64,000 bases of DNA from Candidatus Nitrosopumilus sp. SW (GTDB taxonomy: Archaea > Thermoproteota > Nitrososphaeria > Nitrososphaerales > Nitrosopumilaceae): assembly GCF_006740685.1 (NCBI RefSeq), contig NZ_CP035425.1:783687-847686 (forward strand). The letters are read 5' to 3'. A program made the position numbers and the translations under genes. The first letter of the stretch is position 1, and the number at the start of each line of letters is the position of its first letter. Below, in pieces: positions 10,164 through 22,070 of the stretch. Under the pieces are notes generated by a model. That model did no database searches and was not told where the DNA came from. It worked only from the letters and a program-made list of their open reading frames with translations.

Positions 10164-11086
10164 TGGTATCAAAAATTACAGTAAAAGCACCTTCTTCTAC
10201 AGCAAATTTAGGTCCAGGATTTGATGTGTTTGGGTTGGCAATAGATGCATTTTATGATGAAGTAACCTTGACTAAAACTAAAAGCGGGATAACAATTGTA
10301 ACCCAAGACAACATTCCAACAAATCCAGAAAACAATACTGCAGGATTAGTTGTAAAAAATATGAAAAAAAAATTCAAGATAAAAAATGGAATAGAAATTA
10401 AAATCAAAAAAGGAGTTCCTGCAGGGTTTGGAATGGGAAGTAGTGCCGCATCTGCAGCTGCTACTGCAGTAGCATTTGATAAGTTATTTGGATTAAAGTT
10501 GGATGGAAATTCTTTGGTAGAGTATGCAGGATATGGTGAAAAAGCTAGTGCAGGATCAGTTCATTACGACAATGTTGCAGCCTCTGTTTTGGGTGGATTT
10601 GTAATTGTAAAAACAAATCCATTACAAGTAACTAGAATCGAACCACCAACAAATCTTAGAATGTGCGTTGCTGTTCCAAAACTTGATGTACCAAAAAAGA
10701 AAACCAAAGTTTCTAGAGGAGTTATTCCAAAGAAAATAAAATTAACAGACAGTATTTTGAATTTATCAAATGCGTCAACTATTGTGGCAGGATTTTTGAA
10801 AAAAGATCCAGAATTAATTGGAAATTCAATTAAAGATGTAATTGTAGAACCTGCAAGACAACATATGATTCCAGGATTTGCTAAAGTCAAACAAAACGCT
10901 CTAAAAGCAGGTGCATTAGGCGTGACAATTAGTGGTGCAGGACCTTCAGTAATTGCATTTTCAAAGAGTTCTGCAGATTTAAAAAAAATTAGCTTAGCAA
11001 TGTCAAAAGGATTTTCATCAGCAAACACAAAATGCCAAACAGTAATCTGTAAACCAAGTAAAGGCGCTGCAGATAAAAGAAAATAA
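10163..11086 (+). CDS. thrB: homoserine kinase
   Basis: GHMP-family kinase phosphorylating L-homoserine in threonine synthesis. It starts VSKITVKAPSSTANLGPGFD, the typical ThrB N-terminus, and carries the glycine/serine-rich ATP loop PAGFGMGSSAASAAA and the C-terminal GAGPSVIAF motif. At 307 residues it has family length. The GTG start overlaps the GPN gene's TAG by one base, and queC follows after 11 bases, so GPN-thrB-queC is probably one operon. Confidence 0.93.
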   Translation: MVSKITVKAPSSTANLGPGFDVFGLAIDAFYDEVTLTKTKSGITIVTQDNIPTNPENNTAGLVVKNMKKKFKIKNGIEIKIKKGVPAGFGMGSSAASAAATAVAFDKLFGLKLDGNSLVEYAGYGEKASAGSVHYDNVAASVLGGFVIVKTNPLQVTRIEPPTNLRMCVAVPKLDVPKKKTKVSRGVIPKKIKLTDSILNLSNASTIVAGFLKKDPELIGNSIKDVIVEPARQHMIPGFAKVKQNALKAGALGVTISGAGPSVIAFSKSSADLKKISLAMSKGFSSANTKCQTVICKPSKGAADKRK

Positions 11087-17789: not shown

Positions 17790-19166
17790 TTATTTGGATT
17801 TTGGTCCATTTTCCTTTGATTCTAATTTAGATAACTTCTCTTTTTCTTTCTGAGCTTTCTCAGCATCTCTTTGTTTTTGGTCAGCTTGTTGTTTTGCTAG
17901 TTTTTCAGCTTCTTGAGCAGCTTTCTTTGCATCTCTTTGTTTTTGGTCAGCTTGTTGTTTTGCTAGTTTTTCAGCTTCTTGAGCAGCTTTCTTTGCATCT
18001 CTTTGTTTTTGGTCAGCTTGTTGTTTTGCTAGTTTTTCAGCTTCTAGTTGAGATGTAGAATTAGGAGTACATTGACCTAGATAGTCATCATCATGATGCT
18101 CCAAGTGATGTCTTGCAGCATTTCCTGGGAGAGATAGAGTTGCTTTTCCGTTGTGACATACATCAACTTTCTCATTTGAGAATGTGATTTGTGGTGTAAC
18201 AGGTGATGTTACGGTTGAAAATGAGTTAGAGGAAACATCATTTGTACAGTTACCTTTTGTATCACCATGATTAAGATGTGCAAGTAATGCATTTGTAGAA
18301 ATTGTTATAGTGTTTTTACCTTTATGACAGATGGTTACCTTTTCATTATTTCCTGATGTCTCAGTTCTATGAAATGCTTCAAGTGTAGAAATTCTTTCTT
18401 CAAGTAAGGCATTTTCTTCTTTGAGTTGAGTTATTTCATTTTCTAATGCTAGAACTTTATCAAAAATTAATTGGATTTGCTCAAAAATTTCCTCAAATAG
18501 AGAGTCATTTGATTCCTCATCAACTTCAATTACAGATATTGTTACATTTGCAGAATTACTGATATCTTCTCCATCAGATGTCCAATAAGAAAATGTCGTA
18601 TTTCCAACAAATCCTGCTAGAGGGGTAAACAAAACTTCAGATTCTTGGATTTCAACAAATCCTCTAATTTCTGATGGATCATTTTGTAAAAAGATATTCA
18701 ATGAATCATTATCTACATCAAAATCATTTTCAAGAACATCTATACGAATAGGGACGTTTTGTTGAGTTTCAACATGATCATTTTGTGCAACAGGTGCATC
18801 ATTAATTGGATTAACAAAAATTATTACGGTAGCTTCATTGCTGTTGTCAGTTCCATTATTTGCTACATAAGTAAATGAATCAGTATTAACAGAATTTTCA
18901 TTTGGCTGATAAGTAAAATTACCATTATGATGGAATGTCAAAGTTCCAAAATTAACATCAGTTAGAAGAATTGCATTTAATGGTTCATTTGTGGTGTTGG
19001 TATCGTTTCCCAATATTCCAATAGGCTCAACAGTTAGAAGGGAATCCTCATCAACAGAGTAAAAGTCATCTTCTGCAATTGGAAATTCTTGAGCAAACGC
19101 AAAACTAGAGAATAAACCTCCTGAAATTAGTACAGTATACAAGAATATTCCTGGAACTTTTTGCAT
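17790..19166 (-). CDS. large secreted protein: cadherin-like repeats, CHKG motifs, charged repeat tail
   Basis: A 458-residue exported protein. After the signal peptide come two tandem cadherin-like/VCBS-type modules (about residues 30-125 and 125-215: DDFYSVDEDS and DAPVAQNDHV starts), then a coiled coil (residues 225-270). Next are two copies of a C-H-K/N-G-K...H-x-x-H...G-x-C motif (VTICHKGKNTITIS and VDVCHNGKATLSLP) that could bind metal, and a lysine/glutamine-rich tail of 22-residue repeats (LAKQQADQKQRDAKKAAQ). It is probably a surface adhesin or S-layer-associated protein. Confidence 0.75.
   Translation of the reverse strand: MQKVPGIFLYTVLISGGLFSSFAFAQEFPIAEDDFYSVDEDSLLTVEPIGILGNDTNTTNEPLNAILLTDVNFGTLTFHHNGNFTYQPNENSVNTDSFTYVANNGTDNSNEATVIIFVNPINDAPVAQNDHVETQQNVPIRIDVLENDFDVDNDSLNIFLQNDPSEIRGFVEIQESEVLFTPLAGFVGNTTFSYWTSDGEDISNSANVTISVIEVDEESNDSLFEEIFEQIQLIFDKVLALENEITQLKEENALLEERISTLEAFHRTETSGNNEKVTICHKGKNTITISTNALLAHLNHGDTKGNCTNDVSSNSFSTVTSPVTPQITFSNEKVDVCHNGKATLSLPGNAARHHLEHHDDDYLGQCTPNSTSQLEAEKLAKQQADQKQRDAKKAAQEAEKLAKQQADQKQRDAKKAAQEAEKLAKQQADQKQRDAEKAQKEKEKLSKLESKENGPKSK
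17863..18044 (-). repeat. 66-nt coding tandem repeat, 2.8 copies
   Basis: Units begin at 17863, 17929 and 17995 and are almost identical; each encodes 22 residues of the charged tail of the secreted protein. Because 66 is a multiple of three, copy number could change without a frameshift. Confidence 0.9.
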
Positions 19167-20633: not shown

Positions 20634-21062
20634 GTGAATAAAAAAATCATCATCATTTCCATTATAGTGATTATAGGATTTTTTACAATATTATCGTTGG
20701 ATTCATCTGAGAAAAAAGATAATGTTGTTTTTCATGTGACACTAGCAGATCCACAATTATATGAAAATGGTGAATATACAGAAAGTTTTGAGATTAAGAA
20801 TGGTGAATATTATTTCAGATTTGTTCCAAATGGAAGTAGTCCTGAGATTTTATCCATATCAATAAAAGGAAAAGATTTTGGTTTTGATGAAGATTTTCAA
20901 TTAAGAAATACATTACACCAAACTGGAATTTCAGAATATTACACATGGGAATATGATGGTACATCTTCTTTCAAAATACATCAATCAGATGAAGTCATGA
21001 TTATTATCAATCCAAATGGAAATGTAATGGGTTCAGTATCTGTAGATATTTTACAAAATTAA
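20634..21062 (+). CDS. membrane-anchored small extracellular protein
   Basis: A 142-residue protein from a GTG start. Residues 2-20 form a hydrophobic anchor (KKIIIISIIVIIGFFTILSL) with lysines before it, putting the rest outside. The remainder is beta-rich (FHVTLADPQLYENGEYTE, YYFRFVPNGSSPEILSIS) and ends with a GSVSVDILQ strand; it may be a small jelly-roll or GOLD-like fold. No family is assigned. Confidence 0.6.
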   Translation: MNKKIIIISIIVIIGFFTILSLDSSEKKDNVVFHVTLADPQLYENGEYTESFEIKNGEYYFRFVPNGSSPEILSISIKGKDFGFDEDFQLRNTLHQTGISEYYTWEYDGTSSFKIHQSDEVMIIINPNGNVMGSVSVDILQN

Positions 21063-21063
21063 G

Positions 21064-21192
21064 AGGCGTAATCCCCTTCATTGCAGAACTTTGAGAGATT
21101 CCCTCTCGTTGTCAAACGACCTTAGCGCCTGATTACCTTTATTGTTCTGCGGGGATACGCAATTTTAGTCGATAGGAATTATATCCATCGGC
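21064..21192. ncRNA. candidate structured RNA with multi-helix fold
   Basis: Positions 21066-21076 pair with 21151-21160 (GCGTAATCCCC with GGGGATACGC, one bulged A), and 21083-21089 pair with 21144-21150 (GCAGAAC with GTTCTGC), stacking directly on the first helix. Inside are two hairpins (21093-21107, GAGAG..CTCTC; 21108-21120). A further hairpin lies at 21170-21190 (CGAT.GGA..TCC.ATCG). AGGCG at 21064-21068 could also pair with CGCCT at 21126-21130, giving a competing fold. The TATA for the SDR gene lies downstream, so this is not its leader. It matches no known family; the strand is uncertain. Confidence 0.5.
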
Positions 21193-21295
21193 ATTAATTA
21201 TTATAGGAACTACAAGTATTTAAGATTTAATATAATAAATTACAAATAATTCTTTAATTATTAAAATATTTTATTCCTATTTCTTAAAAATCGAT

Positions 21296-21326: not shown

Positions 21327-22070
21327 TTGAGTTTATCAGGTAAAGTTGCCCTTGTAACTGGTGGAAGTAGAGGAATTGGATTTGCCACTGCAAAAGTTTT
21401 GTCAGATAATGGAGCCAGTGTAGTAATTACAGGAAAAGATCAAAAGCGATTAGAAAAATCAGCTTGTGAAATTTCTAATTCGTTTGCAATAGTAGCTGAT
21501 GTTAGAAAAACAGACGATGTAAAAAATGCAATAAAAAAAACTGTAGAGAAATTTGGAAGGTTAGATATTCTTGTAAACAATGCAGGAGTGTTTCCAAGAA
21601 TCAAAAAATTACATGAAATTGAAGAAGAAGAATGGAATGAGGTTTTAGACGTAAATCTTACAGGACCATACAGAGTTACAAAAGAGGCAATTCCTCATTT
21701 ACAGAAAACATCTGGTTCAATAATTAACATTTCATCAGATGCTGGACTAAAAGCATATCAAGGATTTAATGCTGATGCATATTCTGCAACAAAGGCTGCA
21801 TTAATTGTACTAACAAAATGTTGGGCACTTGAATATTCCAAAGATAAGATTAGAGTTAATTGCATTTGTCCTGGAGTAGTAGATACAGATATGACAAAAC
21901 CATTTGTAAAAACTCAAAAAGATAGAGATTTTATGGATGCAGAACACCCATTAGGCAGAATTGGAAAACCTGAAGAAGTAGCAAAGGCGGCACTTTATTT
22001 TGCCTCAGATGATGCATCGTGGACTACAGGAGCAATTTTAGCAGTAGATGGAGGAGAATCTACAAAATAA
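21327..22070 (+). CDS. SDR family oxidoreductase (FabG-like)
   Basis: A 247-residue classical SDR: TGGSRGIG cofactor loop, NNAGVFP, ISSDAG with the catalytic serine, and YSATKAAL as active site. The C-terminal GAILAVDGGES segment is typical of 3-oxoacyl-ACP reductase-like members. Archaea of this type lack bacterial fatty-acid synthesis, so the substrate is probably another 3-oxo or sugar alcohol compound. It starts with TTG, supported by a TATA box at leaderless distance. Confidence 0.85.
   Translation: MSLSGKVALVTGGSRGIGFATAKVLSDNGASVVITGKDQKRLEKSACEISNSFAIVADVRKTDDVKNAIKKTVEKFGRLDILVNNAGVFPRIKKLHEIEEEEWNEVLDVNLTGPYRVTKEAIPHLQKTSGSIINISSDAGLKAYQGFNADAYSATKAALIVLTKCWALEYSKDKIRVNCICPGVVDTDMTKPFVKTQKDRDFMDAEHPLGRIGKPEEVAKAALYFASDDASWTTGAILAVDGGESTK

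Follow-up and report, generated by a model that had tools for sequence, protein, structure and literature searches.

Which strand of the strongly folding segment at 21064-21192 is transcribed, and what could the resulting RNA do? In the window, by which we mean the whole 64-kb stretch of DNA analyzed here, this segment had been described from its letters alone as a multi-helix RNA with a riboswitch-like choice between two pairings. Both strands fold well, with energies of -42.2 kcal/mol on the plus strand (z = -4.1) and -44.6 kcal/mol on the minus strand (z = -4.8), and none of 200 shuffles folded as well on either. When relatives were aligned together with their flanks, conservation was found to run past the 21192 end into promoter elements, and a T-rich stretch was found beyond the 21064 end; the RNA is thus assigned to the minus strand, opposite to the one first assumed. 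We regard an RNA family encoded on this strand as near certain, and 21064-21192 as one copy of a small stand-alone RNA gene. Judging from the conserved promoter and the T-rich side of the aligned relatives, its transcript would extend from 21194 toward 21055 on the minus strand, and the members of this RNA family are about 130-140 nt in size. The sequence-only reading had already counted a stand-alone RNA among its options, and the RNA does have its own promoter. It made no mention of a nine-codon reading frame, which stops at the foot of the conserved fold and suggests a previously undescribed RNA that holds or senses a ribosome.

Promoter, transcript ends and fold

All parts of the window copy described below lie on the minus strand. 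Upstream of the frame's ATG, a BRE-like AAAT (21225..21228, -34 to -31 from the ATG; 86-95% conserved per position among 175 distinct copies), a TATA box TTAAATA (21217..21223, beginning 29 nt upstream of the ATG, -29 to -23; 86-98%) and a proximal -10 element TATA (21202..21205, -11 to -8; 77-93%) were identified. The sequence-only reading had placed the TATA box of the next gene further downstream; the box conserved beside the element is the RNA's own. An exact T[TA]AAATA is present upstream in 169 of 189 copies, 142 of which have it at a distance of 29 nt from the ATG. Among 561 protein genes in the fetched loci, which served as a host-type comparison, such boxes peak 26-30 nt before the ATG. 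Because the two spacings match, the ORF would start close to the 5' end of the transcript, very probably at that end or one base after it. On the other side, a C and a U-rich tail (CTCTTAATTTTGTAAA, 21050..21065), T-rich in relatives, mark the probable transcription end and overlap the 3' end of the convergent gene at 20634-21062.

From 5' to 3', the fold comprises a P1 hairpin within the ORF (21170..21190 in its MFE form; the register differs between relatives), a 4-nt spacer between the stop codon and P2 (21161..21164), P2 itself (5' strand GCGTATCCCC, 21151..21160; 3' strand GGGGA.T.TACGC with one bulge, 21066..21076) and P3 (GCAGAAC, 21144..21150, with GTTCTGC, 21083..21089). P3 encloses the P4 hairpin TCAGGCG...CGTTTGA (21112..21132), which evolves fast and has both-side changes at 7 of 7 pairs, and the P5 hairpin GAGAG-GGAAT-CTCTC (21093..21107), the most conserved of the hairpins. 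The 10-bp bulged helix stacked on a 7-bp helix, the inner hairpins and the outer hairpin, all noted earlier by eye, are supported by both folding and covariation. An alignment of 42 Nitrosopumilus-type copies has 90.6% of its cells paired and both-side changes at 17 of 42 pairs, a set that took in a tentative pseudoknot; the slid controls were all much worse. The covariation check proposed with the original description was borne out family-wide: over 70 copies including distant genera, compensatory changes were observed at 34 of 37 pairs, with a covariation score of 0.391 versus 0.17 in shuffled and at most 0.08 in slid versions, figures that lean toward the model to which this alignment was fitted. 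The proportion of paired cells over these copies is 95-97% for P2, P3 and P5, 86% for P4 and 70% for P1. The three basal pairs of P2 (G-C, C-G, G-C) are nearly invariant and the pairs above them vary freely. P1 shows both-side changes at 8 of 8 pairs, is weak in paralog C, and beats codon-shuffled versions in 99 of 101 ORFs (-6.4 vs -2.1 kcal/mol).

The mutually exclusive pairing of AGGCG with an inner CGCCT is present in the window copy. Its conservation as a switch was rejected: TCAGGCG occurs in only 42 of 190 relatives, and AGGCG anywhere in the region in 52 of 190. Another candidate, in which the junction AAAAAGGC would pair with the 3' tail GCCTTTT, reaches 4.0 bp versus 3.4 bp in shuffles. 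It covaries in one clade (TGGC/GCCA in L060, L061 and L064) and fails in L041-type and distant copies, so that it is possibly a clade-specific pseudoknot or an alternative pairing. The three copies of this clade combine the junction AATGGC with the tail GCCATT, and other copies combine AAAGGC with GCCTTT.

No established RNA family was recognized. At gathering score, only tRNA reaches the Rfam 15 threshold within the 64-kb window; permissive searches around the locus (up to E = 10) returned nothing relevant, and six relatives including paralogs B and C had no Rfam match up to E = 1. The snoRNA families of Rfam (box C/D and H/ACA) gave no window match at gathering score; one weak snoRNA match, with 15 bits against a cut-off of 48, lies outside the RNA. 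The lack of resemblance to 5S rRNA, SRP RNA and RNase P RNA, previously judged by eye, agrees with these searches: RNaseP_arch is not matched at the locus, and the RNase P RNA of the host is located elsewhere (C1:279358-279637). ARAGORN detected no tmRNA in the 64-kb window. No description of such an RNA was found in the openly licensed papers searched; the transcript may nevertheless have been mentioned before.

The nine-codon reading frame

The predicted transcript of the window copy opens with a leaderless ORF of nine codons, ATG CCG ATG GAT ATA ATT CCT ATC GAC TAA (MPMDIIPID*, 21165..21194). In 189 of 190 distinct loci, an ORF terminates immediately ahead of the closing stem P2; its length is exactly nine codons in 178 of the 190, counts that are not independent since the sequences are related. 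When the ORFs were clustered at 60% identity, 20 groups were obtained, most of them nine-codon. The start codon is ATG in 181 loci, some copies having TTG or GTG, and the distance from stop codon to P2 is 3 or 4 nt in 183 of the 189 relatives with an ORF. The exceptions are a few copies with 8, 10 or 12 codons and one locus (L121) without a stop at the usual place. Copies too divergent for alignment by eye keep the nine-codon rule as well, such as L124 (MFVKPLRMA), L136 (MAEKSRQMT), L134 (MTFVVRAMD) and L144 (MLVQCRMMD).

This regularity could mean that the RNA is a tiny mRNA encoding a functional peptide of nine residues, for example a signal or an inhibitor, with the structured part as a 3' UTR for stability and termination. 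Start and stop are indeed kept in nearly all copies, and weak residue preferences exist within subfamilies (e.g., xxKDxxxxD). However, the peptides are nearly wholly different between lineages and even between paralogs of the same genome (compare MPMDIIPID, MSLVKKSNE, MFVKPLRMA and MEKRAIFTA), no residue after Met is common to all of them, and the RNA domain is conserved far better than the peptide. Comparison of distinct ORFs yielded 58 single-base differences, of which 52 alter the encoded residue and only 6 are synonymous, versus 22.6% synonymous expected, and codon position 2 is the most changed. This nonsynonymous excess is partly due to P1 pairing; the hairpin lies within the ORF and puts its own constraint on these bases, so that codon tests are harder to interpret. 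Taken together, a peptide product appears unlikely to be what the gene is kept for.

Alternatively, the RNA might be an ordinary untranslated structured RNA whose ATG, frame and stop arise incidentally from the transcription start site and from P1. Most copies do form the P1 hairpin, and the interval between P1 and P2 is A/T-rich, hence stops are easily met there. Against this, no in-frame stop occurs in the 856 codons of 107 distinct nine-codon ORFs, compared with a mean of 62 in within-ORF shuffles, and the other two frames of the same ORFs contain 98 and 49 stops. All three stop codons are in use (TAA in 117, TAG in 57 and TGA in 15 copies). Moreover, the frame and its 3-4-nt spacer persist where P1 shifts or weakens, both in divergent lineages and in paralog C, the third paralog of the host genome (MEKRAIFTA), which has different hairpins and still has nine codons and a 3-nt spacer. 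We therefore consider an untranslated RNA distinctly unlikely and translation of the ORF very likely. The 5' part of the RNA is thus a hairpin and a reading frame at once, and of the frame only the length and the end, not the peptide, are kept.

Genomic context and a possible role for translation

Next to the window copy, a short-chain dehydrogenase gene at 21327 points away from the RNA gene, and the gene at 20634-21062 converges on it. Both neighbors are on the opposite strand in 126 of 190 copies, the downstream neighbor is on the same strand in only 23 of 190, and neighbors differ among paralogs. As the neighbors are mostly on the opposite strand and a conserved downstream gene is lacking, the RNA is a stand-alone gene rather than a leader.

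This arrangement bears most directly on a third explanation, a transcription or translation attenuator in which a leader peptide and a terminator control a gene. The anatomy is suggestive: a leaderless short ORF at the 5' end is followed by a stem at its stop codon and by a U-rich end, and the bacterial rnTrpL RNA likewise starts at the ATG of its ORF. However, a regulated gene on the same strand would have to lie downstream, which is contradicted by the variable neighbors described above, and the frames share no codon able to sense an amino acid. Control of a neighboring gene by attenuation is thus improbable. The initial proposal of a plus-strand riboswitch-like element or trailer is barely credible: good folding of the plus strand is expected for a sequence complementary to a structured RNA, but the promoter is conserved on the minus strand, the exclusive AGGCG pairing is not conserved, the paralogs adjoin unrelated genes with no conserved same-strand downstream gene whose 5' UTR the RNA could occupy, and the transcript, coming from the opposite strand, ends against a convergent gene instead of trailing one.

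The best explanation, to which we assign a probability of roughly 0.55, is that the short ORF of this stand-alone RNA serves to park a single ribosome at the foot of the structured domain. A ribosome would load on the leaderless AUG, open P1, translate nine codons and, on termination, have the base of P2 at its mRNA entry. Counted from the first base of the last sense codon, a nine-codon frame and a spacer of 3-4 nt put the start of P2 10 or 11 nt downstream. Bacterial ribosomes unwind mRNA about 11 nt ahead of the P site; a terminating ribosome would accordingly stand at the foot of P2, a position that rests on bacterial footprint values in an archaeal host. In simulations on the window RNA fold, blocking at least nt 1-38 removed lower P2, and blocking nt 1-40 removed all of it. 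An alternative 3' hairpin that forms when nt 1-40 are covered was rejected, since its conserved pairing did not exceed that of the best among 300 shuffles.

On balance, translation would act in cis and not via the peptide, with the ORF placing one ribosome beside the structured domain. Presentation of the domain, stability of the RNA or ribosome occupancy would then depend on translation; the outcomes we considered are opening of P2, protection of the RNA, and ribosome sequestration or a docking complex. Because most loci have no downstream gene on the RNA's strand, the RNA may afterwards act in trans or as a ribosome-bound particle. We tentatively propose a class of ribosome-parking RNAs, in which a leaderless ORF of fixed length and arbitrary peptide would serve only to hold a ribosome against a conserved domain. 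If this is true, such an RNA would sense translation, or sequester or modulate ribosomes, with neither a coding product nor a downstream gene, and an ORF preserved for its length and end point, irrespective of its peptide, would give a clean example in nature of translation serving as a mechanical signal.

Several known systems combine a short frame with a structured RNA. The dual-function bacterial small RNAs SgrS, RNAIII and SR1 contain a short ORF and a structured or regulatory part; their ORFs have ribosome-binding sites and encode conserved peptides, whereas the archaeal ORF is leaderless and conserved only in its length and end point. tmRNA is a structured RNA with a reading frame of about ten codons beside a stem, together with a tRNA-like domain and a tag frame that has no start codon. 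In the archaeal RNA, by contrast, no tRNA-like domain was found, and the ORF has its own ATG and promoter. The nearest known design that we could verify is rnTrpL/peTrpL of Sinorhizobium meliloti, a trans-acting small RNA that begins directly with the ATG of a 14-aa ORF; as in the archaeal RNA, the ORF at the 5' end is followed by stems and a terminator-like end (PMC7298713). rnTrpL, however, arises by attenuation of a downstream trp gene and encodes a functional peptide (PMC7298713), whereas the archaeal RNA has no conserved downstream gene and keeps frame length and stop position rather than a peptide. Tan1, an abundant 229-nt structured ncRNA of marine group II Euryarchaeota reported only from Thalassoarchaea, is likewise a structured RNA of marine archaea and differs in phylum and in its greater length (PMC5069720).

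Distribution and paralogs

The RNA architecture is confined to the Nitrosopumilaceae, the family to which the ocean's dominant ammonia oxidizers belong. A core-free pattern (TATA, spacing, 8 codons, TRR, GCG) matched 101 of 115 Nitrosopumilaceae genomes versus 1 of 85 genomes of the order's other families, with four control matches in each group; its TRR element permits TGG, which is seen in none of the family matches listed. In the host genome, three pattern matches and no control match were obtained. BLAST with the window copy as query was positive in 86 of the genus's 95 genomes, and relatives were found in Nitrosopumilus, Nitrosarchaeum and related genera. Within the order, the covariance model R1 gave matches in 205 of 400 genomes and 18 of 66 genera, all in the window's own family. 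A broader model, R2, matched 205 of 399 genomes of the class, with only Nitrosopumilaceae among the matches listed. No model match was found in genera g14, g15 and g21. Two loci labelled 'Nitrososphaeraceae' (L160 and L188) have the same gene neighbors as Nitrosopumilaceae copies. A phage or viral origin was also considered and rejected, as searches of viral contigs and phage records gave no match. The covariance model could be used to annotate a missing gene family in Nitrosopumilaceae genomes.

Genomes carry one to five copies, usually two or three paralogs. The host genome has the window copy (C1:804747-804879), copy B (C1:143360-143488) and a third copy (C1:342029-342149), and another genome (G006) has copies at C1:22399-22531, 488161-488281 and 690172-690301. 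The third host paralog surfaced only with R2; its P3 and P5 differ and its P1 is weak. This paralog (L273, G000:C1:342029-342149, minus strand, together with L274-L283) has near-invariant GCGAAAAA-ACATGTTATC and GAGAATGCTTTTCA segments and a different inner structure. Copy number also differs among related genomes, up to at least four (G238 and G285). In G238, R2 gave five matches up to E = 1, the weakest being the reverse strand of another match; in G285, two copies on separate contigs begin identically. A weak match in genus g17 (L279, G324:C52:3577-3698, minus strand, E = 4e-4) has a P2-like stem and a GGGGGCAATCCCCC hairpin. No nine-codon ORF is recognizable in it, and it could be either a chance match or an exception to the nine-codon rule. 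Tandem copies about 300 nt apart, each with the short ORF, were detected at locus L113 (G312:C184:10096-10212 and 10402-10520), which suggests a recent local duplication. Elsewhere in the window, the minus-strand gene at 17790-19166 encodes a predicted secreted protein with several repeats of EAEKLAKQQADQKQRDAKKAAQ in its C-terminal part.
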